Below are positions 1 through 18,500 of a stretch of DNA of 35,939 bases, piece after piece. Below the pieces are notes generated by a model. That model did not search any database and was not told where the DNA came from. It saw nothing but the letters and a program-made list of their open reading frames with translations. Origin of the DNA: Chloroflexota bacterium (GTDB lineage: Bacteria > Chloroflexota > Dormibacteria > CF-121). Location of the stretch: NCBI GenBank assembly GCA_005882045.1, contig VBHO01000015.1, forward strand, positions 2,050 to 37,988, in the 5' to 3' direction. Both the position numbers and the translations under genes were made by a program. The first letter of the stretch is position 1. Each line of letters starts with the position of its first letter.

Positions 1-471
1 TTCGCCGCGGCTGCGGTGATACGCCTGGATCATGCGAAGTCCCGTCCATTCGCCGTGAGCGCCCGCGGCCGGCTGCAGGCTCATCCGGTCCATTGCGGTG
101 AGTGCCAGCAGCGCTCGTTCGAGCTCCCACATCAACCGCAGCGCCCCTTGTGCCCGGGCCGGTGGGTGGTAGGGATGGAGGTCGGCGAAGTCATCGAGTC
201 GAGCCAGCGCTTCGTTGACAGCAGGGTTGTACTTCATGGTGCAGGAGCCGAGGGGGTAGAGCCCCTGATGGAGGTTGAAATTGAGACGGCCGAGCCGTCC
301 GTAATGACGGGCGACCTCCGGCTCACTAAGTGACGCGATCGGAAGTGGAGAGCGGCGCCTGAGCGCCGGCGGTACGATCTCGTCCAGCGGTCGCGTCTTG
401 ACACCTACCGCGGGGAGCCGCGGGCTCGGCCGCTGCTGGCTGCCCAGCTCGAACAGCAACGGCTCGCTCAT
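1..471 (-). CDS. gcvPB: Glycine dehydrogenase (decarboxylating) subunit 2, 5' part, cut by window edge
   Basis: This is one half of the two-subunit P-protein of the glycine cleavage system, which decarboxylates glycine with pyridoxal phosphate and passes the aminomethyl group to the lipoyl arm of GcvH. Only the first 157 codons lie in the window; the reading frame is open to base 1. The protein starts MSEPLLFELG and contains the family block YPLGSCTMKYNPAVNE followed by GALRLMWELE and AGAHGEWTGL, all typical of GcvPB. The pyridoxal-phosphate lysine lies in the missing C-terminal part. The ATG overlaps the gcvPA stop codon as ATGA, so translation is probably coupled. The identification is secure; whether the rest of the gene is intact cannot be judged here. 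Confidence 0.95.
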   Translation of the reverse strand, partial: MSEPLLFELGSQQRPSPRLPAVGVKTRPLDEIVPPALRRRSPLPIASLSEPEVARHYGRLGRLNFNLHQGLYPLGSCTMKYNPAVNEALARLDDFADLHPYHPPARAQGALRLMWELERALLALTAMDRMSLQPAAGAHGEWTGLRMIQAYHRSRGE

Positions 472-1799
472 GCGAGGACCTCGAGGTAGCGCTCTATGGC
501 GCGCGGCTGGTTGAGCTCGGTGGTGGAAACGAGCAGCGCATCCGAGAGCTCCGGGAAGAACCGGCCGAGCGGCAGGCCCGGAAGGACGCCGCGCTCGAGC
601 ATGAAGCCTTGCGTTTGCTCGGCGGGGTAGGGGGTGTGCACCACGAACTCCCAGAGAAACGGGCCGTCGAAAGCCAGGCGATAGCCCTTACGTTCGACCA
701 GCTGCGCCGCCAGGTGATGGGCACGCTGCGCGCTCAGCTCGGCGAGCTGCTTCAGGCCTTCGCCACCCATGTGGGCGAGGTAGACGGTGGCGGCGATGGC
801 CATCAATGCGTGGTTGGTCGTGATGTTGGAGGTCGCGTGCTCGCGCCGAATGTGCTGCTCGCGGGCCTGGAGCGTGAGCACGTAGCCGCGGCGGCCCTGC
901 GCATCGATGGTGGCACCGACCAGGCGTCCCGGCATGCGACGCATCAGCGCTTCCTTGCAGGCAATGAAGCCGACATAGGGACCGCCGAACGACAAAGGAA
1001 TCCCGAGTGGTTGGCCATCGCCGACCGCCAGGTCGGCGCCATATTCTCCCGGCGCTGCCAGCACGCCGAGCGAGATCGGATCGACGCACGCGATCAGCAA
1101 CGCGCCGGCACGATGGGCAATATCACTGATGGACTGCGGTTCCTCGAGAACGCCGAAGAAGTTGGGTTGCTGCAGGATGACCGCGGCGGTCGAGGCGCTG
1201 ACCGCCTGCTCAAGTTTTGCGGTGTCGATGCGTCCATCCGCGCCGGGCGCCACTCGGATGATTTCGTATTGCTGCGCGTCCGAATAGGTCTGCAACACCT
1301 GCGCGTATTCCGGGTGCAGGGCGCCTGCCACCACCACGTTCTGGCGAGCCGTATGCGCGACCGCCATCGCCGTCGCTTCCGCCAGCGCCGTCGCCCCGTC
1401 ATAGAGCGAGGCGTTGGCAACGTCGAGGCCGGTGAGGAGCGTGATCATGGTCTGGAACTCGTAGGTCGCCTGCAGGGTCCCCTGGCTGGCCTCGGGCTGG
1501 TAGGGCGTGTAGGTCGTATAGAAGTCGGGCCGGGAGATGACCTGATTAACGATCGCCGGACTGAACCGACGCGAGGCCCCGGCACCTAGGAAGTTGTGCG
1601 AGGGCGGGATGCGCGTGTTGAGGCGACCCAACTCGCGGAAGTACTGGACGAGCTCCACCTCCGAGAGCGGCTCGGGAAGCTCGATCCGATCGAGGCGCAG
1701 CGCGGCCGGCAGATGCTTGAACAGGCCTTCGGTGCTGTCGAGCTCGAGGGCCTTCAGCATCTCGGTGCGTTCGGCCTCGGCGTTGGGAAGGTACGTCAC
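468..1799 (-). CDS. gcvPA: Glycine dehydrogenase (decarboxylating) subunit 1
   Basis: GcvPA forms the N-terminal half of the split P-protein and works with GcvPB to decarboxylate glycine in the cytoplasm. The 443-residue product has the normal length for the family and recognisable blocks such as RIPPSHNFLGAGASRRF near residue 65, YQPEASQGTLQATYEFQTM near 100 and ASLYDGATALAEA near 130. The start is GTG at 1799, overlapping the gcvH stop as GTGA; at the other end its TGA overlaps the gcvPB ATG as ATGA. These overlaps on both sides argue for one transcript with coupled translation. The frame is intact, in contrast to gcvT upstream. A long open frame on the opposite strand (609-1589) is taken as a high-GC shadow. 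Confidence 0.97.
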   Translation of the reverse strand: MTYLPNAEAERTEMLKALELDSTEGLFKHLPAALRLDRIELPEPLSEVELVQYFRELGRLNTRIPPSHNFLGAGASRRFSPAIVNQVISRPDFYTTYTPYQPEASQGTLQATYEFQTMITLLTGLDVANASLYDGATALAEATAMAVAHTARQNVVVAGALHPEYAQVLQTYSDAQQYEIIRVAPGADGRIDTAKLEQAVSASTAAVILQQPNFFGVLEEPQSISDIAHRAGALLIACVDPISLGVLAAPGEYGADLAVGDGQPLGIPLSFGGPYVGFIACKEALMRRMPGRLVGATIDAQGRRGYVLTLQAREQHIRREHATSNITTNHALMAIAATVYLAHMGGEGLKQLAELSAQRAHHLAAQLVERKGYRLAFDGPFLWEFVVHTPYPAEQTQGFMLERGVLPGLPLGRFFPELSDALLVSTTELNQPRAIERYLEVLA

Positions 1800-2182
1800 G
1801 ACCCGGCTTGACCTTGTACGAACGTGTCGTAGGCGTTCTGGTCGAGCAGTTTCGGGTTGTCCTTCACGCCGCGAAGCTTGACCACCCAGCCTTTGCCGTA
1901 CGGATCCGCATTGACATACTCGGGGTGATCCTTGAGGTCCTGGTTGACCTCAGAGACTTCGCCAGTCACCGGACTGTAGAGATCCGAGGCCGCCTTCACG
2001 GATTCGATCACGCCCAGCCGTGCCCCGGCATCGAGTTGCTGGCCGACCGCGGGCAGCTCGAGGTAGATGACGTCGCCAAGTTGCGACTGGGCATATTCGC
2101 TAATCCCTACGGTCGCCGAGTCGCCATCTTTCTTCACCCACTCGTGGGTTTCGGCAAATCGCAGCCCGCTCTGGTCTGGCAT
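1796..2182 (-). CDS. gcvH: Glycine cleavage system H protein
   Basis: GcvH is the lipoyl carrier that shuttles the aminomethyl group from P-protein to T-protein and then electrons to L-protein. The 128-residue product starts MPDQSGLRF and contains the lipoylation motif VIESVKAASDLYSPV, with Lys63 as the attachment site, followed by SGEV-like turns and a C-terminal GKGWVVKL strand. An ATG at 2182 preceded by a purine-rich GGAAAGGGAG sequence is chosen. A longer open frame reaches back to 2338, but that extension lies inside gcvT and does not resemble GcvH. The gene lies 16 bases downstream of the gcvT stop and overlaps gcvPA by four bases. Confidence 0.96.
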   Translation of the reverse strand: MPDQSGLRFAETHEWVKKDGDSATVGISEYAQSQLGDVIYLELPAVGQQLDAGARLGVIESVKAASDLYSPVTGEVSEVNQDLKDHPEYVNADPYGKGWVVKLRGVKDNPKLLDQNAYDTFVQGQAGS

Positions 2183-2198: not shown

Positions 2199-3273
2199 TC
2201 ATTTCGGATGAGGCCGCTTGTAGAAGGGCAGCGCAACCACCTCCGCCGGGGCAGCGGTGCCGCGAACGTCCACGCCAAAGCGGGTCCCCGGCTCGGCCAG
2301 GGTCGGCGGCACGTACGCCATCCCGATGTTGTAGCCAAGTGTGAAGGAGACGTTGCCCGAGGTCACCGTGCCGACCGCCGCGCCGCCGTCGACCACCTCG
2401 TAGCCGTGGCGCGGGATGCTCCGGTCGAGCATCCGCAGGCCGGCCAGCTTGCGGCTGAGTCCGCTCTGCCGCACGGCCAGCAGCGCCTGCCTGCCGATGA
2501 AGTCCTTGCCCAGGCTGACGGTCCACTCCAGGCCCGCCTCCAGGGGATTGGTCCCCTCGTCGATGTCGTTCCCGTAGAGCCGCATGCCGGCCTCGAGCCG
2601 CAGGGTGTCGCGGGCTCCGAGGCCCGCCGGCTTGAGTCCGTGCCGGGCGCCCTCCTCCAGGAACAGGCGCCACACGCCCGGCGCGTCGTGGTTCAAAACA
2701 GCTCGAAGCCGTCTTCGCCGGTGTAGCCGGTCCGCGAGATCATGCATGCGACGTCGGCGACCTTACCCTCGATGAAGGCGTAGTACTTCAGGCTGCCAAG
2801 CTCCGATGGTGTGAGTCGCTGCACCAGGCCGACGGCTCGCGGACCCTGCACGCCGATCAGCGACCAATCGCGCCCGACATTAACAACGGGGTCCGCACCC
2901 TTCGACGAGTGCGCTGCGATCCAGTCGAAGTCGCCGTCCTGGTTGCCGGCATTGACCACCAGGCAACCGCGTAGGCCAGGACATCGTCGATGATGCCACC
3001 CGCCTCGTTGCAGAGCATGGCGTACTGGATCCGGCCGGGCCTGAGCCGAGTGAGGTCGCGCGTGACCACCTGCTGGGCCAGGCTCTCGTCTTTGACACGC
3101 AGCTCGCCCATGTGCGAGAGGTCGAACAGCCCGACCGCCTCACGCACCGTGCGATGTTCCTCGCGGATGCTGCCGTATTGGAGCGGCATGACCCAGCCAC
3201 CGAAGTTGGTCATCTGGGCGCCGAGGTGGACGTGTTCCTCGTAGAGCGGTGTCCGCTCGGCCGTCACGACCAA
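2199..3273 (-). pseudogene. gcvT: Glycine cleavage T protein (aminomethyltransferase), broken by two frame changes
   Basis: T-protein transfers the one-carbon unit from GcvH to tetrahydrofolate and releases ammonia. Clear GcvT sequence is present across the whole span but in three successive frames. The first part, from a TTG at 3273 with GAGG eight bases upstream, reads RTPLYEEHVHLGAQMTNFGG to AGGIIDDVLAYA. The second reads VVNAGNQDGDFDWIAAHS to TGYTGEDGFELF. The third reads NHDAPGVWRLFLEEG to the C-terminus YKRPHPK. Breaks fall near 2960-2970 and near 2693-2702, the second beside a run of four T in the sense strand. Each break needs a loss of 3n+1 bases; the first also seems to lack a few residues compared with known GcvT proteins. 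It may be a real pseudogene or assembly error; no slippery heptamer suggests programmed shifting. GTG at 3267 is an alternative start. Confidence 0.85.
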
Positions 3274-3295: not shown

Positions 3296-3889
3296 CTATT
3301 CCTCTTGGTCTTCCTGGTCGTCAAGATCGTCGAGGTAGTCGAGCAGCTCCTGGTCGTGCGTGGTGCGCGCTTCGCTCAGCATGGCGAGGATGACGTTGAC
3401 GCGCGCTTCCTCCCACTGCAACAACTTCGCCAGCTCGGCAGGGGTGGCCGGACGGTCCAGCCGTTCGGAAAGGAGGCGCTGCGCCGACTCCAGCAGGCGG
3501 CAGGCGATGACAAAGGCTTCGTCGTTGCGCTGGGCCTCCTCCGTCTGCGCGAGCACGTCATCCATGGTCACCGTAATGACGTGAACCAGGCGAGCATGGA
3601 AGGCCCCATCGGCCGGCTTGTAGTGCTCGACCGCCGAGATCAGCCCCACCGTCCCTTCCTGGAAGAGGTCGCCGAAGGCGACGCCCCGTCCCTTGCGTGC
3701 CTGCGCGGCCTCCAGCACCAGGTGGAGGTTGTGCTCGATCAGCACGCGGTTGGCCGCATCGCGATCGGCGCCGTGGGTTGACAGGAGGCGGCGCTCTTCC
3801 TCGGTGGACAGCCGCGGGTAGCTGGCGAGCTGCGCCTGGATCTCAGCCTCCTCACCCTTCGGAGGTCGTTGCTCGATGCGTTGGGCCAC
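3296..3889 (-). CDS. Sigma-70-like protein with degenerate region 2.4 and no region 4
   Basis: The 197-residue product resembles sigma-70 family proteins around residues 45-90: LIEHNLHLVLEAAQARKGRG and DLFQEGTVGLISAVEHYKP match regions 2.1-2.2, which bind the core RNA polymerase clamp. The part that should melt and read the -10 element (about 91-115) is unlike the usual aromatic-rich helix. Residues 137-175 look like region 3 (LSERLDRPATPAELAKLLQW). There is no region 4, and the protein ends in a run of Asp and Glu. It may bind polymerase without ordinary promoter recognition, for example as a regulator or anti-sigma-like decoy; that is inference. It is the first gene of the gcv operon, 22 bases before gcvT. 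The start is GTG at 3889 with TAGAAT six bases upstream. Confidence 0.75.
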   Translation of the reverse strand: MAQRIEQRPPKGEEAEIQAQLASYPRLSTEEERRLLSTHGADRDAANRVLIEHNLHLVLEAAQARKGRGVAFGDLFQEGTVGLISAVEHYKPADGAFHARLVHVITVTMDDVLAQTEEAQRNDEAFVIACRLLESAQRLLSERLDRPATPAELAKLLQWEEARVNVILAMLSEARTTHDQELLDYLDDLDDQEDQEE

Positions 3890-3895
3890 GTTCTC

Positions 3896-3901
3896 ATTCT
3901 A
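3896..3901 (-). promoter_or_regulatory. -10 box of the sigma-like/gcv operon
   Basis: TAGAAT on the minus strand ends seven bases before the first base of the GTG at 3889, where transcription would be expected to begin. This predicts a leaderless mRNA. No convincing -35 element was seen. Confidence 0.5.
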
Positions 3902-3927
3902 CGAACGACGGGTCCTCGAACTGGGCC

Positions 3928-3933
3928 TATGAT
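3928..3933 (+). promoter_or_regulatory. -10 box of the nfeD operon
   Basis: TATGAT is separated by six bases from the GTG start of nfeD at 3940, the same geometry as the divergent -10 box at 3896-3901. A leaderless transcript is predicted; there is no Shine-Dalgarno sequence in front of the GTG. Confidence 0.5.
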
Positions 3934-3939
3934 CAGGTG

Positions 3940-7266: not shown

Positions 7267-8025
7267 TTGCCAAGAGTCTACGCAGTCGTCAACCAAAAGG
7301 GCGGCGTGGGGAAGACCACAACCGCTATCAACGTGGCGGCCAACCTTCCCGGGCTCGGCCTGAGCGGGCTCATCGTCGATATGGATCCGCAGGGCAATAC
7401 CACCAGTGGGCTTGGCATCGTGCGAAGCGAGCTCAGCCGTAGCATCTATGACGTCATCGTCGACGCCCACGACATCAATGAGGTGGTGCGCCCGACGGCG
7501 GTCACCGGTCTCGACATCCTTCCCTCGCATCGATCGCTCGCCGGCGCCGAGATCGAGCTGATCAACCTCCCGCGCCGCGAACGGCGGCTCCTGTATGCGC
7601 TCGAGTCGCTGCGCACCAGCTACGACTACATCATCATCGACTGCCCGCCGTCGCTCGGCTTGCTTACCGTCAACTGCCTCGTGGCGGCGGAGTACATGCT
7701 GATCCCGATCCAGTGTGAGTACTACGCACTGGAGGGGCTCGGTGCGCTGACCCACACGACACAGTTGATTCAGCGCGAGCTCAATCCCCGACTGAAGATC
7801 GGTGGCATCGTGCTCACGCTGTTCGACCCGCGCACCACGCTCACGCTCCAGGTTGCCGAGCAGGTGCGCGCCCAGTTCCCGGAAAAGACGTTCCGTACCG
7901 TGATCCCACGCAACGTGCGCCTCAGCGAGGCGCCCAGTCATGGCATGCCGATCACTCAGTACGACCCCACGTCGCGCGGCGGCGTCGCCTACCAGGAACT
8001 CACGAAGGAGTTGATCGCCAGATGA
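7267..8025 (+). CDS. parA: Chromosome-partitioning ATPase ParA/Soj
   Basis: ParA is a deviant Walker-type ATPase that binds DNA nonspecifically and moves ParB-bound origins apart. The 252-residue product begins with RVYAVVNQKGGVGKTT (P-loop at about 10-18), then IVDMDPQGNTTSGLG near 38, YIIIDCPPSLGLLT near 120 and VRLSEAPSHG near 218, all standard for chromosomal ParA. The TTG at 7267 is the only start next to the conserved N-terminus; no strong ribosome site is visible. The stop overlaps the parB ATG as ATGA. The position near dnaA matches the usual location of parAB close to the origin. Confidence 0.96.
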   Translation: MPRVYAVVNQKGGVGKTTTAINVAANLPGLGLSGLIVDMDPQGNTTSGLGIVRSELSRSIYDVIVDAHDINEVVRPTAVTGLDILPSHRSLAGAEIELINLPRRERRLLYALESLRTSYDYIIIDCPPSLGLLTVNCLVAAEYMLIPIQCEYYALEGLGALTHTTQLIQRELNPRLKIGGIVLTLFDPRTTLTLQVAEQVRAQFPEKTFRTVIPRNVRLSEAPSHGMPITQYDPTSRGGVAYQELTKELIAR

Positions 8026-8909
8026 ACAAACGGCGAGGCCTGGGGCGGGGTCTCGAGGCCCTGATCCCATCCGGTGAGTACGTCGAGGAGTTGGGCACCG
8101 AAAGCGGTGCGCGGCGGCGCTACGCGCTGCAGATCCCGATCGCCGACATCAAGCCGAACCCGGAGCAGCCGCGTCGGGCGTTCGATCCGACGACCCTCCG
8201 TGAGCTCGCCGATTCGATCCGGATGCACGGCATTCTGCAGCCCCTGCTGGTCCGCGAAGGCCTGGCCGGCTACGAGCTGATCGCCGGTGAGCGCCGGCTC
8301 CGCGCCGCCGAAATCGCCGGACTTCACGAGGTACCGGTCATCGTCCACCCTGGCAGCGGCGGGCGTCTCGAGGAGCGGCTCGAGCTGGCGCTGGTCGAAA
8401 ACCTGCAACGCACCGATCTCAATGCCATCGAGGAGGCCCGCGCGATCCAGCGGCTGCTCCGCGATTTCGGCCTGACCCAGGAGGCACTCGGCGAGCGGAT
8501 TGGCAAGAACCGGGTGACCATCGCGCAGAGCGTCCGGTTGCTCGGCTTACCAGAACCGGTCGTCAAGGCGATCGAGTCGGGGGCCGTCACCGCCGGGCAC
8601 GGGATTGCGCTCCTCGGCCTACCCAGCGCCGCCCAGCAACTGGTCGGCCTGGAGCGGATCATTCGCGAGCACTGGAGCGTGCGCCAGACGGAAGAGTGGG
8701 CGCGGGCCCGCGCCACTGAGGCGGGCGCGAGGACGCCGCGGCGGGTCGTATCGGGCGATCCCGAGACGCGGGCGATCGAGGAGGAGCTTCGCCGCGCGCT
8801 GGGCACGAAGGTCGTGCTTTCGCGGCTCAGGCACGGCGGTCGGTTGACGATCGAGTTCTACAGCAACGAGGAGTTCGAGGCGCTTCGGCGCCGCCTTACC
8901 CGCAGCTAG
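8022..8909 (+). CDS. parB: Chromosome-partitioning protein ParB/Spo0J
   Basis: ParB binds parS sites near the origin, spreads as a CTP-dependent clamp and recruits ParA and SMC. The 295-residue product starts MNKRRGLGRGLEALIPSG, the usual ParA-interacting N-terminus. It has IPIADIKPNPEQPRRAF near 40, the CTP-binding block ELIAGERRLRAA near 85, and a helix-turn-helix around LTQEALGERIGKNRVTIAQS near 150-170. A C-terminal dimer domain ends TIEFYSNEEFEALRRRL. The ATG overlaps the parA stop as ATGA and a GGAG lies a suitable distance upstream. I did not find a clear parS palindrome in the window by eye. Confidence 0.96.
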   Translation: MNKRRGLGRGLEALIPSGEYVEELGTESGARRRYALQIPIADIKPNPEQPRRAFDPTTLRELADSIRMHGILQPLLVREGLAGYELIAGERRLRAAEIAGLHEVPVIVHPGSGGRLEERLELALVENLQRTDLNAIEEARAIQRLLRDFGLTQEALGERIGKNRVTIAQSVRLLGLPEPVVKAIESGAVTAGHGIALLGLPSAAQQLVGLERIIREHWSVRQTEEWARARATEAGARTPRRVVSGDPETRAIEEELRRALGTKVVLSRLRHGGRLTIEFYSNEEFEALRRRLTRS

Positions 8910-8935
8910 TCGCCCAGATTGGGCTGGCTTGTGAT

Positions 8936-8964
8936 GTTAGACGTGTAACGAACCGGCGTCTGAC
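8936..8964. terminator. Hairpin between convergent parB and ndk
   Basis: GTTAGACG (8936-8943) pairs with CGTCTGAC (8957-8964) across a 13-base loop with one G-T pair. A second small hairpin, GCCCA-GAT-TGGGC, lies at 8912-8924. Neither is followed by a clean T run, so a bidirectional terminator role is only suggested by their place between two converging genes. Confidence 0.35.
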
Positions 8965-8977
8965 TCAGCCGAGATGG

Positions 8978-9433
8978 CTATTCGCGGATCCAGCGGTCTA
9001 TGGTGCGATCGTAGTCGTGCAGCTCGCCGTGGCTGAAGAAAAGAACGATCTCGGTCTCGGCGCGGGCCGGCGAATCGGATCCGTGGATCAGGTTCATGCC
9101 GAGGTCGAGGGCCAGGTCGCCGCGAATCGTGCCGGGCGCCGCCTTGAGGGGATCGGTCGTGCCCATCAGGCTACGCACCACGCTGACCGCCTCGCGGCCT
9201 TCCCAGATCATGGCGACCACCGGGCCTGAGGTGATGAACGCAAGCAGGCCGTCGTAGAACGGTTTGCCCTGGTGCTCGGCGTAATGCCGGGCGGCGACCT
9301 CGTTCGAAATTTGCATCATCTTCAGTCCCACCAGCTTGAGGCCGCGCTGCTCGAGCCGCCGCAGGATCTCGCCCACGAGCCCTCGCTGGACGCCGTCAGG
9401 CTTGACCAGGACCAGCGTGCGCTGCACGGTCAC
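8978..9433 (-). CDS. ndk: Nucleoside diphosphate kinase
   Basis: Ndk moves the gamma-phosphate of ATP onto nucleoside diphosphates through a phosphohistidine. The 151-residue protein begins [20 protein letters not shown] and contains the active-site block [16 protein letters not shown], with His117 as the phosphate carrier. The length is normal. The GTG at 9433 starts two bases after the lepB stop, so ndk is probably translated with lepB. A second GTG two codons later (9427) would also serve. It converges on parB, leaving 68 bases between the two stops. Confidence 0.96.
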
Positions 9434-9435
9434 CG

Positions 9436-10035
9436 CTACTGGCTCGCGGCGAGGGTCGGCTTCGCGCCTAAAAGCCCGACCTGGCCGAGCGGCCAGATTC
9501 GGATCTCGGCTTTTCCAAGGATCGCGTCGAGCTCGACCGGGCCGAAACTCCGCGAATCGCTCGAATGATTTCGATTATCGCCCATGACGAAGTACTGATC
9601 CGGAGGGATCAGCTGGTCCTGGCCGGAGGGCGGCCAGTTGTTGTTGTAGGTCCACTTCTCGGGCAGGTAGGGCTCGCGTAGCACCTGGCCATTGATGTAG
9701 ACGACGCTGTTCGTTATGTGGATCCGCTCGCCGGGCAAGGCGATGATGCGCTTGATGAAGTCGCGGCTCGCTTCGTCCGGCGGCTTGAAGACGATGATGT
9801 CGCCGCGCTGCGGTTGGTGAAGCTTGTAGGAGATCTTCGACGCCACCAGCAGGTCGTTGTCGTGCAGCGTGGCATACATGCTCGAGCCCAGTACGTGCAC
9901 CGTCTGCACGGCGTACTGGATGACGACATACAGCACCAGTGCGAGGAACACGATCTCGAGCGTGTCCCTGAGAAAAGACTTCTGGCGCGGTGGTTGCGCC
10001 GGCGCCGTCGGTTGCGCCATGTGCGGCTGCGCCAT
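9436..10035 (-). CDS. lepB: Signal peptidase I
   Basis: Type I signal peptidase removes signal peptides from secreted proteins outside the membrane. The 199-residue protein has a Pro/Gln-rich cytoplasmic N-terminus, one membrane segment (about 26-46), the nucleophile Ser52 in [10 protein letters not shown] and the general base Lys95 in [15 protein letters not shown]. The box [14 protein letters not shown] near 155 completes the family set. The normal SxMxPT motif is SSMYATL here, with Ala for Pro, a common small change. A TAGAAT box on the minus strand at 10070-10075 may provide a promoter. The gene lies downstream of the M16 peptidase and upstream of ndk on the same strand. Confidence 0.95.
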
Positions 10036-10108
10036 CCTTTAGCTGTTCAACTTCATCCGAGGGCGACTCATTCTAGCGTCCCATTCTGCGCATGCGCCTG
10101 GATCGGGC

Positions 10109-11389
10109 TCAGGCGATCTGTTTGAGGAAAGGTGCCTCACTCCGGAACGGACCGATCACGGCCAGCTGCAGCGCCTGGCCAAAGAGGTCCTTGGCGATCC
10201 GCATCACGTCGTCGGCGGTGACGGCATCGATCTCCGCGACCGTCTCGTCGACGTCCTCGATGCGCCCGGTCAGCGCCTCCTGACCTCCATACCAGGTGGC
10301 CACGGAGTTGGTGCTTTCCATCTGCAGCAGCAGGCGGCCCTTGTAGAACTCCTTGGCCTTGGTGAGCTCCGCCTGGTTGACCGGCTCGTCGCACAGGCGG
10401 CGCAGCTGGCCGACGATGGCGCCAACCGCACGCGCGGCCTGACGCGGCTCGGTGCCGGCGTAGACGCCGAGCACGCCCGTGTCGTACATCTTGTTGACGT
10501 AGGAGTGAACGTCGTAGGCGAGCCCCAGCTTCTCGCGAACCTCGAGGAACAGCCGCGAGCTCATCCCCTCGCCAAGCACGCAGTTGAGGATGTCGATCAC
10601 GTGGCGGTCGCGGTCCATGTAGGAGGGGGCATGGACGCCGAGGCACACATGCGCCTGCTCGGTCTTCTTCGACTTGAGCAGGACGGTGGGCTTGAGCCCA
10701 TTGGCAGCCGACGGCAGGAACGATGGCGGCGCCGATCCGTTGCCGCGGACTTTGAGGTAGGGCTCGATCAACCCGATCGCCTCCTCATGCGTTACGGGTC
10801 CGGCGATCGTGACCACCAGGTTACGCAGCAGGTAATGCTCGTCGAGGTAGCGCATCAGGTCGTCGCGCGTCAGGGCGCGGACGGACGCCTCGGTGCCGGC
10901 CACATCGCGGCCCAACGGATGGTTGGGCCAGCTGATCTGCTCGAACAGACTATGGACGTACTCCTGCGGTGAGTCCTGGTACATCCGCAGCTCCTCGAGG
11001 ACGACGAGGCGCTCCTTCTCCAGCTCCCTCGGGTCGAGCAACGGTTGGAAGAGCATGTCGCCCAGGACGTCGATTGCGAGCTTCGCCTTGTTCTTGGGCA
11101 CGCGGGCCCAGTACATCGTCAGCTCTTTGTCGGTCCCGGCATTGAGCACGCCGCCGACGCCCTCGATGGCCTCGGCGATTTCCTTGGCGCCGCCGTAGTG
11201 TGCGGAGCCTTTGAAGAACATATGTTCGAGGAAGTGCGAGATGCCGGCTTCCTGGTCCGACTCGTAGCGCGAGCCAACCTTGAACATGATCGCCATGGTG
11301 GTGGAGGGGCGGTCCGCCAGCTCGGTCGATACCACCCGGGCCCCGGTCGGCAAGGTGGACAGACGATAGGGAGACCGAGACAGGGGCAC
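10109..11389 (-). CDS. M16 family zinc peptidase (processing-peptidase/PqqL-like)
   Basis: This is a pitrilysin-family metallopeptidase. The 426-residue product has the inverted zinc motif HFLEH (His52, Glu55, His56), with the third ligand in RLVVLEELRMYQ near 132, and the C-terminal M16 half with REKLGLAYDVHSYV near 303. The length matches the bacterial single-chain form that resembles mitochondrial processing peptidase. The start is GTG at 11389: TATACT lies six bases upstream and the protein then begins MPLSRSPYRLSTLPTGARVV, as in relatives. A longer open frame to 11530 crosses that promoter and the divergent gene, so it is rejected. The substrate is unknown. Confidence 0.92.
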   Translation of the reverse strand: MPLSRSPYRLSTLPTGARVVSTELADRPSTTMAIMFKVGSRYESDQEAGISHFLEHMFFKGSAHYGGAKEIAEAIEGVGGVLNAGTDKELTMYWARVPKNKAKLAIDVLGDMLFQPLLDPRELEKERLVVLEELRMYQDSPQEYVHSLFEQISWPNHPLGRDVAGTEASVRALTRDDLMRYLDEHYLLRNLVVTIAGPVTHEEAIGLIEPYLKVRGNGSAPPSFLPSAANGLKPTVLLKSKKTEQAHVCLGVHAPSYMDRDRHVIDILNCVLGEGMSSRLFLEVREKLGLAYDVHSYVNKMYDTGVLGVYAGTEPRQAARAVGAIVGQLRRLCDEPVNQAELTKAKEFYKGRLLLQMESTNSVATWYGGQEALTGRIEDVDETVAEIDAVTADDVMRIAKDLFGQALQLAVIGPFRSEAPFLKQIA

Positions 11390-11395
11390 GATCAG

Positions 11396-11401
11396 AGTAT
11401 A
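11396..11401 (-). promoter_or_regulatory. -10 box of the M16 peptidase gene
   Basis: TATACT on the minus strand is six bases from the GTG at 11389. Spacing is identical to the boxes at 3896 and 3928, so a leaderless mRNA is likely. Confidence 0.5.
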
Positions 11402-11466
11402 TCGTAGGGTTGCTCGCGGATCGCTGCATTCTGGGGGCAGACCGGGGCAACTTGTGAGTGCCTGGA

Positions 11467-11472
11467 TATCAT
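11467..11472 (+). promoter_or_regulatory. -10 box of the small gene at 11478
   Basis: TATCAT stands five bases before the ATG at 11478, facing away from the M16 promoter. The 88 bases between the two start codons thus hold a divergent promoter pair. Confidence 0.4.
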
Positions 11473-11477
11473 TGAAG

Positions 11478-11837
11478 ATGGGCGGAGTGAAGAGCCAATC
11501 TGAATTCGTGGACCGCCTGAACATGCTCATCGGCCGGGTTGAGGCCTGGAGCTACGGGGACTCCGACGCCGGGGCCGGCATGCCGGTTGAGCTGGCCAAG
11601 GACCTCAAGCGGCTGGCGTCGAAAGTGCCGGCGGGGACGCTACGAGAGGGAATCCGCCGTGCCCAGGACGCGCTCGACGACGGCCTGTCGGCGGAAACCG
11701 TCGCGGCCGCCCTCTATCGGGTGCGGGCCGAATGGCTGAACGGGCCTCAGCCCTCGCCGCCCCGCTCGCCTTCGGGCGCGTCCGTTCGGGGCTCACCGAA
11801 GCGCGGGCGTTCTCCAAATCGCGGCCGGTCGCCGTAG
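11478..11837 (+). CDS. Small protein of unknown function
   Basis: I do not recognise this family. From ATG at 11478 the product has 119 residues: a helical, charged part (about 1-88; GGVKSQSEFVDRLNMLIGRV, LAKDLKRLASKVPAGTLREG, AETVAAALYRVRAEWLNG) and a basic Ser/Pro/Arg tail. It has no membrane segment or signal peptide. The last 91 bases overlap the 3' end of jag on the other strand, and the tail is the reverse reading of the jag repeat, so it may carry little information. In-frame codons continue to 11454, but the ATG has a -10 box directly upstream. It is flanked by the divergent M16 peptidase and the convergent jag. It is likely real, because codon use in the first 88 residues looks coding and no other gene covers that stretch. 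Confidence 0.6.
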   Translation: MGGVKSQSEFVDRLNMLIGRVEAWSYGDSDAGAGMPVELAKDLKRLASKVPAGTLREGIRRAQDALDDGLSAETVAAALYRVRAEWLNGPQPSPPRSPSGASVRGSPKRGRSPNRGRSP

Positions 11838-12529
11838 CGGGGTCGGTCCCCGTAGCCGCTGCCCTGCCGCGTCAATGGCGGAGAGGGAGCCGGCAGCGGG
11901 CGTTCCGCCGGTCGACGGCTGGCGCTCACGCCGTCCGGCAGGATGGCGACCCGCCGGTTCGGCTCCTCGCCCTGGCTCTCGGTGCGTATCCCGGGCTCCT
12001 TCTCGAGCGTGATGTGCACGATGCGGCGCTCGTACGACTGCATCGGGTCCATCATCACGCGCTCGCCGCTGCGCCGGACGCGGTCCGCCAGGCGTAGGGC
12101 CATCTCCTTCACCGTTTCCTCTCGCCGGTTGCGATAGTGCTCGACGTCGACCACGAGCCGACGGCGGTCGGCGCGACCTTCATTGAGAATCAGGTTGACG
12201 ACGGTCTGGAAGGCACGGAGCGTCTCGCCGCGCCAGCCGATCAACAGGCCAAGATTGTCGCCGGCGACATCGATCATGACCGGCTCGTCGGCCTTCTTGA
12301 TGGTCACCTGGGCGGTGATCCCCATCTTGTAAAGCAGCTCGGCCACGACTTCTCGCGCCTTGACCGCATAGGTCTCGCGCAGGGTGACCCGGACGCGAGC
12401 CTCCTGCGGAGACTGCTCGAGCACCTCAACCTCGACGTTCTCGCGCGCCTCGTCGAGGTCTTCGAGCGCCTGGTCGACGGCCTCATCGACGGTTTTCCCC
12501 GTGGTTTCGACGCTGTTGCTGCTGCTCAT
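11747..12529 (-). CDS. jag: Jag/KhpB-like RNA-binding protein
   Basis: Jag (KhpB/EloR) is an RNA-binding protein usually encoded after yidC and linked to cell elongation and division. The 260-residue protein has a Jag N-domain (KTVDEAVDQALEDL, residues 12-25), a KH domain with LLIGWRGETL (GWRG at 98-101), and an R3H domain with SYERRIVHITL (168-173). A proline- and arginine-rich tail from about 205 contains four imperfect copies of a YGDRPR/FGERPR unit (226-247). The ATG at 12529 overlaps the yidC stop as ATGA; the longer open frame through yidC is not used. The repeat tail is unusual for the family and overlaps the opposite gene at 11478-11837. Confidence 0.95.
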   Translation of the reverse strand: MSSSNSVETTGKTVDEAVDQALEDLDEARENVEVEVLEQSPQEARVRVTLRETYAVKAREVVAELLYKMGITAQVTIKKADEPVMIDVAGDNLGLLIGWRGETLRAFQTVVNLILNEGRADRRRLVVDVEHYRNRREETVKEMALRLADRVRRSGERVMMDPMQSYERRIVHITLEKEPGIRTESQGEEPNRRVAILPDGVSASRRPAERPLPAPSPPLTRQGSGYGDRPRYGDRPRFGERPRFGEPRTDAPEGERGGEG

Positions 12530-13323
12530 GCGGCTCTCCCCCTCCGTAGGACCGGCGGGATGGACAGGGATCCCCAGCCGGTAATGAAGTACTGCTGGCC
12601 GATGCTGAAAAGGTTGCTCACCACCCAGTAGAGCGCGAGGGCGGCCGCGAATTGAAGCGAGATGAAGCCAATGAACACCGGCATGATCAGGGTCATGTTC
12701 TGCGTCATGGCGGCCTGGGTCGCGTCCTGGGAGGCCGCCCCGCCGGGAGGCGTCATCATCTTGGTCTGCACAAAGGTCGTGAGTCCGGCCAGGAGGGGCA
12801 GCAGGATGGCGAGCGCCACCAATTGGCCCGGCTGGAGTGCCGTGTGGTCCAGGGAAATGCCGAGGAACTTGAAGTCGTGGATCGGGAGCGTCTTGTGGGC
12901 ATCCCGGATGACGTAGAAGAGCGCGATCAGGATCGGCGACTGCAGCAGCGCCGGCAGGCAACCGCTCATCTGGGCGAGCGGGTTGATGTTGTGCTCCTTG
13001 TAGAGCGCCATCGTCTCCTGGTTCAAGCGCTGGGGATCTTTCTTGTACTTCTTACGGACGGCGGCCAGCTGCGGGGCGATGCGGCGCTGCTCCGCCTGCA
13101 CGCGCCGTGAGGTGGTCAGCTGGTACTGGAAAACCGGGGACAGGATCAGCTTGATGATGATGGTCAGGATGACGATGGCGACGCCGAACGGACCAACGGC
13201 GTCGGCAATTGGGTTGCCGTTCAGGGTCGACAGCAGCCATGACAGGATGGCGTGGATCGGGACGCCGACAATCGTCCACCACAGCAGCCAGATCGGGTGC
13301 CAGAGCTGACCGATGGTGTTCAC
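12526..13323 (-). CDS. yidC: Membrane protein insertase YidC/Oxa1
   Basis: YidC inserts proteins into the cytoplasmic membrane alone or with SecYEG. From GTG at 13323 it has 265 residues, the short form without the large periplasmic domain. Segments include [20 protein letters not shown] (about 44-63), a charged hairpin [20 protein letters not shown], and later helices [17 protein letters not shown] and [18 protein letters not shown]. The conserved groove arginine of the first core helix is Lys58 here, a conservative change. The GTG overlaps the yidD stop as GTGA and the stop overlaps jag. There is no lipoprotein signal, unlike the Bacillus forms. Confidence 0.95.
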
Positions 13324-13535
13324 GGCACCGGGTCCCAGCCACCGGTGTGGAACGGGTGGCAGCGGGCGATCCGGGCGAGCGCCATGCCCCAGCCGCGCCA
13401 CCAGCCGTAACGCTGGATGGCCTCGTAGCCATACTGCGAGCAGGTCGGCGTGTAGCGGCAACCGGATACCGCCCCGAAAATCGGGCCGAGCGTCACCCGG
13501 TAGACCCGGATGAGGGCAAGCGAGATCGCCGTCAC
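13320..13535 (-). CDS. yidD: Membrane protein insertion efficiency factor YidD
   Basis: YidD is a small protein that helps insertion of membrane proteins. The core is [20 protein letters not shown] then [18 protein letters not shown] and [18 protein letters not shown], the family signature with its conserved cysteines. The start is taken at GTG 13535, which overlaps the rnpA stop as GTGA and gives 71 residues; the open frame allows GTG at 13556 with seven more residues. It is in the usual rpmH-rnpA-yidD-yidC-jag order. Confidence 0.93.
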
Positions 13536-13864
13536 CGCCCCCACCCCTTCGCCCACAACATTTCTATCTCCTGGCGCAGCCGGGTAAATTCCGCGTCGAC
13601 AGCCCGCGCCCGTGCCACGATTACAACGTCGCGGCCGCCTTCGGTTTGTGTCAGCAACGGCTTGACCAGTTCCCGCAGGCGCCGCTTGATTCTATTCCGG
13701 ACCACGGCGTTGCCTAGCTTCCGACTGACCGCCAGGCCGACGCGAGGCCGGCCGACATCATTATCGCTTACGAATAGAGCCAGGTACTCGGAGGCAGCCC
13801 GCCGCCCGGAACGGAGCGTCCGGTCGAAGTCGGCTGAGCGAAGCAGCCGAACGCGCCGCTTCAC
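13532..13864 (-). CDS. rnpA: Ribonuclease P protein component
   Basis: RnpA is the protein subunit of RNase P, which trims the 5' ends of tRNA precursors together with the catalytic RNA. The 110-residue basic protein starts [20 protein letters not shown] and carries the RNR-type signature [17 protein letters not shown] at about 52-68. The start is GTG at 13864, 19 bases after the rpmH stop. The stop overlaps yidD by four bases. The RNase P RNA gene is not in this window. Confidence 0.95.
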
Positions 13865-13883
13865 CCGCCCGGGGACGTAAGGG

Positions 13884-14039
13884 TTACCGCGCCCGCCGGC
13901 TGGAGGTTGGCGTCAGACGGCGACGGCCCTTGAGGCGGCGAGCCTTGATCACCTTGACACCGCCGGTCGATGACATACGGGCACGGAAGCCGTGGACTTT
14001 GACTCGCTGGCGCTTCTTGGGCTGATGGGTACGCTTCAT
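13884..14039 (-). CDS. rpmH: Ribosomal protein L34
   Basis: L34 is a small basic protein of the large ribosomal subunit. The 51-residue product reads [20 protein letters not shown] followed by [20 protein letters not shown] and a short C-terminal extension ending SSRRAR; the first two blocks are the L34 signature. The ATG is at 14039 and TAA at 13886-13884. It is the first gene of the leftward rpmH-jag cluster and faces away from dnaA. A TATGGT hexamer on the minus strand at 14052-14057 may be its -10 box, leaving only a few bases of leader. Confidence 0.96.
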
Positions 14040-14093
14040 TTGCGGGGCCTAACCATACCATGTGCGGCTTCGACGTTCGTACGTAGTTTCGGA

Positions 14094-14122
14094 TTGCGCC
14101 GGCAGAAACCGTTTGCTATTAT
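14094..14122 (+). promoter_or_regulatory. dnaA promoter
   Basis: TTGCGC (14094-14099) and TATTAT (14117-14122) are separated by 17 bases, a good sigma-70-type arrangement. Transcription would start near 14129, giving dnaA a leader of about 210 bases that contains the DnaA boxes at 14164-14227. Confidence 0.55.
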
Positions 14123-14163
14123 TCCGCTGCCCTGGAGAGCTACGGTAACTAACCATCAACAAC

Positions 14164-14227
14164 TTATGCACACGAGGTTGGGGAGACCTCGATAGACTTG
14201 TCCACCTTTGTGGGAAGCTTGTGCAAA
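14164..14227 (+). other. DnaA-box cluster in the rpmH-dnaA region (candidate oriC part or autoregulatory site)
   Basis: The 300 bases between rpmH and dnaA hold one perfect DnaA box, TTATGCACA (14164-14172), and three weaker ones: TTGTCCACC (14198-14206), TGTGGGAAG in reverse (14209-14217) and TTGTGCAAA (14219-14227). DnaA could bind here to repress its own gene or to open the origin. No strong AT-rich unwinding element sits beside them, so the functional origin may lie partly in the dnaA-dnaN gap. The rest of the 14040-14339 stretch holds the rpmH and dnaA promoters and the dnaA ribosome site. Confidence 0.5.
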
Positions 14228-14339
14228 AGTCGCGTCCTCGCTAACGCCGTCCATGGGCCTCGTTTCCGTCTTCGCGGCCTGACGCGCAGCACCGGCTCTG
14301 CTCTCCAACGAAACAGTCGCGTCTTGGTTGGAGGACCGT

Positions 14340-15698
14340 ATGAACGGAGAACAGATCTGGCAGGCGGCGCAGGAGGAACTTCGGTTCCAGCTCAGTAAGC
14401 CAAGCTACGAGACCTGGCTGAAAAATGCGTCGTTGGTGGGTCGCGAGAAGAATGCCTTCAAAATTGGGGTGCCCACCAAGCTTGCCAAAGATTGGCTCGA
14501 GGATCGCTACTCGGCCATGATCAAGGAGACGCTGTCGGCGATCGTCTCCGGTGATGTCAGCGTCGCCTTCGAGGTTGTGCCCGGCCAGCCTGAGGCGGCC
14601 GCGGGCCGGACCGCGGTGGCGGTCGCCGAGCCGCCGCCGCCCGAAGTCGAGGAGGAGCCGGTTCTCCACGAAGCCTCGCAGCTCAATCCGAAATTCCAAT
14701 TCCAACATTTCGTGGTGGGCAACAATTCGCGCTTTGCCCATGCCGCGTGCCGGGCGGTGGCGGAAACGCCCGCCAAGGCCTACAACCCGCTGTTCCTCTA
14801 CGGCGGCGTCGGATTGGGCAAGACCCACCTGATGCATGCCATCGGTCATGCGGTGCTCGAGAAGCACCACCGCAAGCGGGTCGCTTATGTGACCAGCGAG
14901 AAGTTCATGAATGAAATGATTTCCTCCATTCAGGAAGGGCGGATGAATGATTTCCGCACCCGTTACCGAACCGTCGACGTTCTCCTCGTCGACGACATCC
15001 AATTCCTGGCTGGAAAGGACCGCACCCAGGAGGAGTTCTTCCATACATTCAACTCGCTCCACGAGCTCAACCGGCAGATCGTGATTTCGTCCGACCGGCC
15101 CCCCAAGGAAATTCCCACGCTTGAAGACCGGTTGCGCTCACGGTTCTCATGGGGGCTGATCGCCGATATCCAGGCGGCCGACTTCGAAACCCGGGTCGCC
15201 ATCCTCAAATCAAAGGTCGGGCCCTACGCCAAGCTGGTGCCGGAGGATGTCCTCTCCTTCATCGCCCACAAGATTCAGAAAAACATCCGCGAACTGGAGG
15301 GAGCGCTGATCAGGGTGATCGCGCATGCATCACTGAACCGCAGCGCGGTCAACGTCGACATGGCCGCCAAGCTGCTCCAGGATGTCATCCCGTCGGCTGA
15401 CACGCGTACCCTCACCATCGACACGATCTCGCGCGCAGTCGCCAACTTCTATCACATCAGCCTTGAGGAGATGAAGGGCAAGCGGCGCGACAAGCACATC
15501 GTCTTCCCGCGACAGGTGGCGATGTTCTTGATTCGTGAGGAGACGGCTTCATCGCTGCCGGCGATCGGCCAGGCTTTTGGAGGAAGAGACCACACGACAG
15601 TCCTTCATTCCTACGAGAAGATCAACACCGAGTCCCGGGAAGACCAGCGGCTCCAGTCGGACCTGCGGAAAATCCGCGAGCTCCTTTATTCCCACTAG
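14340..15698 (+). CDS. dnaA: Chromosomal replication initiator DnaA
   Basis: DnaA binds DnaA boxes and melts the origin. The 452-residue protein has domain I (IWQAAQEELRFQLSKPSYET, about 6-25), a Pro/Glu-rich linker (about 83-112), and the AAA+ domain with Walker A GGVGLGKTH (155-163) and Walker B LLVDDIQF (215-222). Domain IV has the DNA-binding signature GGRDHTTVLHSYEK (414-427). The ATG at 14340 is chosen because GGAGGA lies four bases upstream; an in-frame TTG four codons earlier (14328) overlaps that site. It is divergent from rpmH, as at many bacterial origins. Confidence 0.98.
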   Translation: MNGEQIWQAAQEELRFQLSKPSYETWLKNASLVGREKNAFKIGVPTKLAKDWLEDRYSAMIKETLSAIVSGDVSVAFEVVPGQPEAAAGRTAVAVAEPPPPEVEEEPVLHEASQLNPKFQFQHFVVGNNSRFAHAACRAVAETPAKAYNPLFLYGGVGLGKTHLMHAIGHAVLEKHHRKRVAYVTSEKFMNEMISSIQEGRMNDFRTRYRTVDVLLVDDIQFLAGKDRTQEEFFHTFNSLHELNRQIVISSDRPPKEIPTLEDRLRSRFSWGLIADIQAADFETRVAILKSKVGPYAKLVPEDVLSFIAHKIQKNIRELEGALIRVIAHASLNRSAVNVDMAAKLLQDVIPSADTRTLTIDTISRAVANFYHISLEEMKGKRRDKHIVFPRQVAMFLIREETASSLPAIGQAFGGRDHTTVLHSYEKINTESREDQRLQSDLRKIRELLYSH

Positions 15699-15910
15699 AC
15701 CTGTGGATGACTGCCGCATGGGACGTGGATGGTGTTGGAATGGTCACCAGCTGGGGAAATCGGCGGCGGAACACACAGTTTATGAAGCCTATAATTGGCC
15801 CGATTCGAACGTATAGAAGGGGTTTTTCCCTGTTGTGCACCGCCCTACGACTTCGTCTCTTCTCTCAATTAGGCTTTCTTATTGACGGGGTCGTGTAGAC
15901 AAGGAGCATC
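15699..15910 (+). other. dnaA-dnaN intergenic region with DnaA-like boxes and dnaN leader
   Basis: This 212-base gap contains TGTGGATGA (15702-15710) and TTGTGCACC (15833-15841), each close to a DnaA box, and relatively AT-rich patches around 15771-15800 and 15860-15890. TATAAT at 15790-15795 could be a -10 box, without a clear -35. AAGGAG (15900-15905) is the dnaN ribosome site. Many bacteria have their origin in this gap, so it is a second candidate origin segment. Confidence 0.4.
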
Positions 15911-17026
15911 ATGAAGGTCACTGTCACCGCCGGAAGCCTCGGTCAGGGGTTGCAGGTCGTTTCTCGCGCGGTCTCGTCGCGCACCACGTTGCCGATTCTC
16001 AACAACATCCTGCTGCAAACCACCGACACCGGCTTGCAGCTGACGGCGACCAACCTCGAGATCGGGATTCGCCAGGTCATCCCCGCCGAGGTTGCGGAAG
16101 AGGGCGGGATCACCGTTCCGGCGCGACTGCTGACCGACTTTGTGACCTCCCACCCGGACGAGCCGCTCTCCATAACGCTGGACAAAAAAACCCAGTCTCT
16201 GGCGCTGAAGAGCAACCGGTTCGATGCCAGCATTCGGGGGATCGACCCGGCCGACTTCCCGCCCGTGCCCTCGGGCCTCGAAGGTCGCAAGGTCAAAGTG
16301 GATCCGGCGGAGCTCAAGGATGCGATCGAGCAGACCGTGATCGCCGCCTCCAGCGATGAGGGACGGCCGGTCCTCACCGGCGTATATGTCCACCTGAACG
16401 GCGGCAAGGCGACCTTCGCCGCGACCGACGGCCATCGGCTGGCGGTCAAAACCATGGCGGTCCAGGCCGATCCGGGCGAAGGCGACACCATCGTGATCCC
16501 GGCGCGAGCACTCAGCGAGCTCAGCCGTATCCTGAAGGGCGGTGAGGACGGCATCGAAGTGACGGTTGGCGCGCAGAAGAACCAGGTCTTCTTCAAAACT
16601 CGGGACGTCGAACTGATGAGCCGGCTGATCGAAGGCACCTACCCCAACTACCAGCAGGTCATTCCTGCGCAAAGCACGACCACCATCACGGCCAAGACCG
16701 CGGATCTGCTCTTCACGACCAAGATGGTCTCGCTCTTCTCGAAAGACGCCGCCAACGTCATCAAATTCAAGGCGGAGGGCGGGAAGTTGACCCTGACCGC
16801 CAATACCAGCGAGGTTGGTCAGAACATCGCGGAGGTCGAGGCCAAGATCGAGGGCCAGGATCTCCAGGTCGCCTTCAATTCGAAGTATCTCCTCGATGTG
16901 CTGGCCATCATTGGCAGTGAGGAGGTGCAGCTCGGCTTCACCGGTCCCCTCAATCCCGGTTTGATCAAGCCGGTGGGAAAGGACAACTATCTCTACATCA
17001 TCATGCCGGTTAGAGTGGCGATGTAA
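15911..17026 (+). CDS. dnaN: DNA polymerase III beta subunit (sliding clamp)
   Basis: The beta clamp encircles DNA and tethers polymerase III and repair proteins. The 371-residue protein starts MKVTVTAGSLGQGLQVVSRA and contains SRTTLPILNNILL (22-35), VYVHLNGGKATFAATDGHRL near 160-180 and the C-terminus NYLYIIMPVRVAM. The last block is the normal clamp ending that forms part of the partner-binding pocket. The ATG has AAGGAG five bases upstream. The length is normal and the frame intact; recF follows 18 bases later. Confidence 0.98.
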   Translation: MKVTVTAGSLGQGLQVVSRAVSSRTTLPILNNILLQTTDTGLQLTATNLEIGIRQVIPAEVAEEGGITVPARLLTDFVTSHPDEPLSITLDKKTQSLALKSNRFDASIRGIDPADFPPVPSGLEGRKVKVDPAELKDAIEQTVIAASSDEGRPVLTGVYVHLNGGKATFAATDGHRLAVKTMAVQADPGEGDTIVIPARALSELSRILKGGEDGIEVTVGAQKNQVFFKTRDVELMSRLIEGTYPNYQQVIPAQSTTTITAKTADLLFTTKMVSLFSKDAANVIKFKAEGGKLTLTANTSEVGQNIAEVEAKIEGQDLQVAFNSKYLLDVLAIIGSEEVQLGFTGPLNPGLIKPVGKDNYLYIIMPVRVAM

Positions 17027-17044
17027 TCGGTCGCCCAAAACGGC

Positions 17045-18172: not shown

Positions 18173-18500
18173 CATCGGTGAGGCCCTGCCGCGCGCGCTC
18201 AAGTCGCTCGGTATCTCGCGCCGTACCCGGGAGGCACAGGCCCTCTGGTTGTGGCCGAAGGTGATCGGCGCGGACCTCGCTCGAGAAAGCCAGGCGCTCA
18301 AGCTGACCGGTGGCACGCTCCTGGTCACCGCCAGTAGTCCGGCGCTAGCACATCAACTTCATCTCGAGCGGACGATGTTGATCGAACGGCTGAACGAGGG
18401 AATCGGCGCACCCGCCGTGCGCGAGATCCGATTCCGGCAACAAGGGACCGGGGCTCCCGCGGGGTCCGGCAGAGGATCCGCGAGGCGGTTCGTCCGGTGA
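18165..18500 (+). CDS. dciA: DciA-like replication protein (DUF721)
   Basis: DciA is the ancestral loader or operator of the replicative helicase DnaB in bacteria that lack DnaC/DnaI. The 111-residue product has the DUF721 core: ALWLWPKVIGADLARESQAL near 25-45, then KLTGGTLLVTASSPALAHQL and LERTMLIERLN, with a flexible Gly/Arg tail. The ATG at 18165 has AAGGAG six bases upstream and overlaps the recF stop by eight bases. A longer frame back to 18102 lies inside recF. The gene after recF is a common site for dciA in several phyla. Its stop overlaps the following helicase start as GTGA. Confidence 0.85.
   Translation: MRSIGEALPRALKSLGISRRTREAQALWLWPKVIGADLARESQALKLTGGTLLVTASSPALAHQLHLERTMLIERLNEGIGAPAVREIRFRQQGTGAPAGSGRGSARRFVR

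Follow-up and report, generated by a model that had tools for sequence, protein, structure and literature searches.

We analysed a window of 35,939 nucleotides of Chloroflexota DNA. Toward its left end lies a block of minus-strand genes headed by an open reading frame at 3296–3889, here called sigL (the name is unrelated to SigL of B. subtilis). As the first-pass annotation had it, this gene ends 22 bases before gcvT and shares its strand with gcvT, gcvH, gcvPA and gcvPB. The gcvT frame begins with TTG at 3273, and gcvPB runs off the left end of the window. The features discussed below are as follows.

3296–3889, minus strand: sigL, a sigma-like gene with a GTG start, 197 aa, homologous to sigma-70
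3755–3832, minus strand: region 1.2-like segment (residues 20–45); sigma alignments start at residue 20 or earlier, and the profile alignment is colinear
3617–3754, minus strand: regions 2.1–2.2 (residues 46–91); of 19 positions invariant in sigmas, 11 persist in at least 80% of the family
3653–3670, minus strand: DLFQEG core-binding motif (residues 74–79), near-invariant in 51 orthologues
3497–3616, minus strand: rebuilt regions 2.3–2.4–3.0 (residues 92–131), acidic, lacking the WW pair and lying within one continuous predicted helix; 1 of 21 sigma-invariant positions kept
3374–3496, minus strand: region 3.0/3.1 (residues 132–172), matching Sigma70_r3
3299–3373, minus strand: C-terminal helix with an HDxELLxYLD-like motif, plus an acidic tail (residues 173–197), in the position of the sigma finger
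2199–3273, minus strand: gcvT, broken into an N-terminal part (2962–3273) and a C-terminal part (2199–2693) in different frames
1796–2182, minus strand: gcvH; this frame, used as a query, recovered the same block in relatives
468–1799, minus strand: gcvPA (GDC-P, E = 1.1e-120)
1–470 (inner end approximate), minus strand: gcvPB, incomplete at the window edge; identity of 94% with the frame that follows gcvPA in relative G006
3896–3901, minus strand: TAGAAT, a -10-like element 12 nt before the sigL GTG; probable leaderless promoter
3928–3933, plus strand: TATGAT, -10-like and 12 nt upstream of a GTG belonging to nfeD, the divergent gene

The gcvT frame reads through in G006, and the break seen here may be an assembly error or real.

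Several profile methods relate sigL to sigma factors. In Pfam, Sigma70_r2 matches residues 50–109 (E = 8.4e-9; 35.5 bits against a curated cut-off of 24) and Sigma70_r3 matches residues 133–172 slightly under its curated cut-off (E = 4.6e-5). The best PDB matches by phmmer are RpoS and SigA (E about 5e-11 to 1e-10), and these fall within residues 20–179. Hence the similarity claimed initially, of residues 45–90 to regions 2.1–2.2, holds and extends further, into the region 1.2-like and 3.0/3.1 parts. For family-level comparisons we aligned 51 of 56 orthologues, leaving out four near-copies (G058, G042, G034 and G044) and one partial sequence (G024). By hhalign, the family matches a set of 23 Chloroflexota primary-type sigmas with a probability of 99.8 over 194 columns, from region 1.2 to past region 3.1. 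When each of the 51 proteins was searched separately in Pfam at E ≤ 0.01, Sigma70_r3 was found in 46 and Sigma70_r2 in 41, with 10 giving no Sigma70_r2 match at this threshold. Complete copies are 187–220 aa long, with similar lengths in all four families (f1–f4). Judged by sequence, sigL is a genuine sigma-70 homologue, colinear with regions 1.2, 2, 3.0 and 3.1 and without region 4.

The absence of region 4, also asserted in the first-pass annotation, bears up at each level searched. Pfam finds no region 4 in the sigL protein or in any of the 51 orthologues. Nor did a region 4 frame appear in 59 loci around sigL (664 kb), searched with a profile that was built from primary-type sigmas, could miss the ECF type, and recovered both RpoD controls. 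In 47 of the 56 orthologues, the distance from the sigL stop to the first aligned gcvT residues is -11 to +22 nt. This immediate gcvT start, together with the lack of a region 4 frame in the 59 loci, rules out a frame error concealing region 4. A Pfam search for region 4 across four whole genomes returned some frames that possibly lack region 2 and no clear partner candidate.

To describe what sigL keeps and loses, we use E. coli sigma70 numbering, taking DLIQEG to be residues 403–408. We take Q406 and E407 to be core-binding residues in sigma and N409 to be a further core-contact position. The DLxQEG motif is kept almost throughout the 51 orthologues (D403, L404 and Q406 in 50 each, E407 in 49, G408 in all), so the core-gripping element noted earlier is indeed retained; the N409 position is S or T in 47. 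We called a position sigma-invariant when it was the same in at least 21 of the 23 sigmas, and kept when it was found in at least 80% of the sigL family. Regions 2.1–2.2 keep far more such positions than regions 2.3–3.0 (11/19 versus 1/21; Fisher P = 3e-4), and at 16 of the 21 positions in 2.3–3.0, at least 80% of members have lost the sigma residue.

Many of the lost positions belong to the segment that reads the -10 region. According to the relevant excerpts of PMC4496690 and PMC10911233, Y425, Y430, W433 and W434 act in melting, the -12 position involves Q437 and T440, and the extended -10 element involves H455 and E458. The W433/W434 pair is found in 0/51 sigL members versus 23/23 sigmas, and Q437, T440 and H455 are likewise kept in none. 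T429 is kept in 4/51, E458 in 9/51 and Y430 in 6/51, with another aromatic residue at the Y430 position in 22 more. DNA-side loss is nonetheless incomplete, since F427 (42/51) and R451 (35/51) are often kept. The charge of this part has also changed, with a mean net charge over positions 418–458 of -3.5 in sigL (range -8 to 1), compared to +4.6 in the sigmas (4 to 6). The linker proline P453, present in 23/23 sigmas, occurs in 0/51 members, and the finger tip positions 507–513 are absent in 51/51. In the C-terminal helix that takes the place of the finger, A174 and D179 are invariant in the orthologue alignment.

An AlphaFold2 model of sigL, built on an alignment of modest depth, has a mean pLDDT of 88.5, and a Foldseek search with it gives sigma chains in the best 50 rows listed. 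Residues 12–116 superpose on sigma70 regions 1.2 and 2 (7mki) at 1.6 Å over 105 residues, with a Z score of 15.5. Longer superpositions reach only ∼10 Å because the domains are differently placed. The model predicts an unbroken helix at 97–144, in which region 2.4 is fused with 3.0, and another at 161–195. The corresponding regions of the host RpoD, modelled as a control, have helices at 87–106 and 114–134 with a break between them, and no helix at 162–178. One caveat here is that the control has a lower mean pLDDT (74.9), with 19 of the 23 sigmas in its alignment.

A first search covered 61 genomes (the source genome and 60 relatives). Of the 18 that belong to the same family, 17 gave close matches to sigL, and more distant ones turned up across the class. 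We then used a profile of the 51 aligned orthologues against 400 Chloroflexota genomes, scoring up to eight candidates per genome within this one phylum. Orthologues were found in 51 of the 55 genomes of the class at E ≤ 2.6e-36; in the remaining 345 genomes of the phylum, the best E value was 3.1e-28, the level of ordinary sigmas. Many of the genomes searched are fragmented assemblies, and those named here are metagenome-assembled. In G052, which has no match, a run of N falls precisely at the expected gene position; in G014 a contig end falls inside gcvT; and G038 and G056, also without a match, are 84–85% complete with short contigs. This leaves G018 (98% complete, 80 contigs, 1.5 Mb) as the sole genome that may have truly lost the gene, so sigL is perhaps dispensable.

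In a tree of 55 of the 56 orthologues and 14 of the 23 sigmas, the sigL family lies on one side of a branch with 100/100 support, although the program warns of long branches. Families f1, f2 and f4 form supported clades, and f3 is weak (31/58). These relationships fit vertical descent from a single origin, most likely at the root of this class of Chloroflexota. The source genome itself, a 3.2-Mb assembly, has a large sigma repertoire, with 29 Pfam Sigma70_r2 matches including sigL.

A phage origin was also considered and tentatively set aside. All 35 sigL relatives on viral contigs look like ordinary phage sigmas, and for each the sigma profile gave a better score than the family profile did. 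Phage records gave 45 weak matches, the best at 33.5% identity. By eye, sigma-like frames on two of the viral contigs (L214 and L216) seem to be interrupted after FSTYA/FSTYS by CVPLTTEI, which resembles the start of an intein.

Among 14 members of the genus (91 pairs), the median dN/dS of sigL is 0.146, which indicates that the gene is under purifying selection within the genus. Median pN/pS by segment is 0.47 for the N-terminal 19 residues, 0.19 for regions 1.2–2.2, 0.126 for 2.3–3.0, 0.136 for 3.0/3.1 and 0.41 for the tail. The first-pass annotation had called the -10 reading segment degenerate. This is apt insofar as the -10 readers are lost, but the segment is also the most constrained part of the protein; its low pN/pS argues that it was repurposed rather than left to decay and that it probably has a new job. 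The acidic tail described at the outset is real, albeit under less constraint than the core (0.41 versus 0.13–0.19). Purifying selection and class-wide conservation rule out decay, and the description of sigL as truncated does not stand: it belongs to a conserved family that keeps region 3 as well.

The linkage to gcv noted in the first-pass annotation recurs across families, but not in all of them. In 47 of the 56 orthologues, sigL is followed directly by gcvT in the same orientation (f1, 17/17; f3, 21/21; f4, 9/10; f2, 0/8). In four further genomes, gcvT abuts sigL (G401), lies ∼0.2 kb away (G383), or is not adjacent (G396 and G406). In G060, G396 and G406, sigL sits away from gcvT with other neighbours. 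Both G060 and G396 belong to f4, and in each sigL is divergent from what by eye is a glucose-6-phosphate dehydrogenase-like ORF. Directly after sigL, where gcvT would be, G396 has a same-strand gene (L180:6687–7694) that by eye resembles a D-2-hydroxyacid dehydrogenase. Among the f2 loci listed, sigL comes after a gene of the SRPBCC type and faces dinB, and in 7 of the 9 f2 genomes with the gene, gcvPA lies on the same contig, 8–13 kb away. sigL overlaps the end of this SRPBCC (Polyketide_cyc2) gene at L070:5669–6127, L075:6632–7087 and other f2 loci; this gene would be a second operon partner of sigL, and the Pfam assignment covers L070 and L075. Because the gcv link is missing from one whole family and two genomes of another, control of gcv is not the defining role of sigL, and its function is probably not confined to glycine cleavage. 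In short, sigL heads the gcv operon in most orthologues, and its function seems independent of gcv.

Upstream of sigL, an element of the form TAnnnT occurs 11–16 nt before an in-frame start in 48/48 orthologues from families f1, f3 and f4, G060 among them, and in 0/8 from f2, compared to about 3.2/48 in a shuffled control. In the window, with a looser start search, such placement was seen at 6 of 30 chosen main ORFs. The placement fits leaderless transcription of sigL from a promoter of its own. The divergent gap between sigL and nfeD (3890–3939) is only about 50 bases. Each of the two genes has a -10-like hexamer placed 12 nt ahead of its GTG, which makes a pair of leaderless promoters, back to back, likely. 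Beside the gcv cluster, nfeD, SPFH, CPBP and parAB remain in many f1 and f3 loci. The genes parA, parB, rnpA, yidC, dnaA, dnaN and recF, identified by eye at 7267–18500, place the cluster apparently near the chromosome origin. Rfam shows no glycine riboswitch at gathering score within the window.

How might such a protein act? We lean, tentatively and just short of an even balance, towards sigL being a sigma-70 paralogue (regions 1.2–2–3.1) that arose once at the base of the class and is now a polymerase-binding regulator blind to promoters. From the alignments and the predicted model, we infer that sigL binds core and is unable to read promoters; we likewise infer competition with sigma, cotranscription with gcv and a regulatory purpose. 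Region 2.2 would dock, the way it does in sigma, on the clamp helices of beta-prime and would block the main sigma docking site while sigL is bound. The rebuilt 2.3–3.0 helix would be unable to flip -11A or to touch -10 or extended -10 DNA, and sigL would offer no region 4 to the beta flap or the -35 element. Bound sigL would thus keep sigma from part of the core enzyme, making it a sigma competitor, or an anti-sigma by mimicry. The conserved acidic 2.3–3.0 face and the tail may repel nucleic acid or hold a partner. Where sigL is the first gcv cistron, as in most orthologues, we propose that its dose follows expression of the operon. The more specific version, a class-wide blind sigma that serves as an anti-sigma or polymerase-occupancy factor and whose gene, in most of the class, comes first in a central metabolic operon, strikes us as possible but doubtful.

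A partner is central to one alternative, in which sigL is half of a split sigma like RsoA: it would bind core while its 2.3-like segment holds a separate protein carrying a -35-reading region 4. RsoA–SigO offers a precedent (PMC8103513, in excerpt), and the conserved 2.3–3.0 face would suit a partner. Even with one, however, promoter opening would be hard for a protein with an acidic face and most -10 readers lost, and none of the 59 loci around sigL has a region 4 frame detectable with the primary-type profile, which could miss an ECF-type one. We consider this reading unlikely.

Two others seem to us improbable. The first is partner switching, with sigL as a PhyR-like decoy that binds an anti-sigma and so frees a true sigma; such a decoy could keep the same residues. 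PhyR sets the precedent of a sigma-like domain unable to act in initiation, and a host with 29 region 2 matches, sigL included, possibly has many anti-sigmas. Against this, the core-binding parts that are degenerate in PhyR (by the excerpt of PMC8103513) are the best kept part of sigL, and Pfam finds no receiver domain in sigL or among the families matched by the 51 orthologues. The second, to which we give the same low weight, is reuse of the fold for a protein contact outside polymerase, perhaps connected with glycine cleavage or one-carbon metabolism. It would account for the tight coupling to gcvT in 47/56 orthologues and for gcvPA on the same contig, 8–13 kb off, in 7/9 f2 genomes, but leaves the near-invariant core-binding motif without a ready reason and fits poorly with a gene that lies away from gcvT in one family (0/8) and in G060, G396 and G406. 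A decaying sigma gene, or a complete sigma factor with a broken frame, has only the missing region 4 in its favour and is very nearly out of the question given the similar length in four families, the presence in 51/55 genomes, a dN/dS of 0.15, the immediate gcvT start and the lack of a nearby region 4 frame.

Returning to sigL as a promoter-blind, polymerase-binding protein, these data suggest an undescribed transcription regulator kept across a whole class of uncultured soil bacteria. If sigL binds core, it is a natural separation-of-function sigma, class-wide, that still docks on core and has lost the reading of DNA. If true, this would be control of polymerase by sigma mimicry, unlike known anti-sigmas, which bind sigma, and unlike split sigmas. 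The family also carries a warning for annotation, because automatic pipelines would probably label sigL a sigma factor. Our literature search, from which subscription journals were mostly out of reach, returned no description of a sigma paralogue that lacks region 4, occurs throughout a class and is linked to gcv.

Compared to the group 1/2 sigma-70 factors RpoD/SigA and RpoS, sigL has colinear regions 1.2, 2.1–2.2 and 3.0–3.1 and a predicted region 2 fold within ∼2 Å. It differs in having no region 4, finger tip or WW pair and few of the other -10 readers, in its acidic 2.3–3.0 segment, and in the long fused helices of the model. Phage T4 gp55, a sigma of the region 2 type, lacks region 4 and binds core polymerase; by description, it invites comparison with sigL and differs from it in reading a -10-type element. 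The 35 viral-contig relatives of sigL all look like ordinary phage sigmas.

In RsoA–SigO of Bacillus subtilis, regions 2 and 4 are carried by separate proteins (PMC8103513, in excerpt). The masses given for SigO–RsoA in the excerpt of PMC10141391 are 22.54 and 9.00 kDa, with the domain assignment reversed relative to PMC8103513. Like sigL, RsoA as described in the latter excerpt has sigma region 2 and lacks region 4; by these descriptions, sigL differs in being far larger (197 aa, with region 3), in showing no region 4 partner in the 59 loci searched around it and in having mostly lost the -10 readers. The sigma-like domain of PhyR titrates an anti-sigma, and its contacts to promoter and core are degenerate (PMC8103513, same excerpt). 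PhyR and, presumably, sigL share a sigma fold that does not initiate transcription. As described there, PhyR is ECF-like and has a receiver domain and degenerate core-binding parts, whereas sigL keeps the core-binding part and has no receiver that we could find. The sigL family thus has features in common with RsoA and PhyR, with core motif and region 3 retained and most -10 readers lost, and by description it is distinct from both and from gp55.
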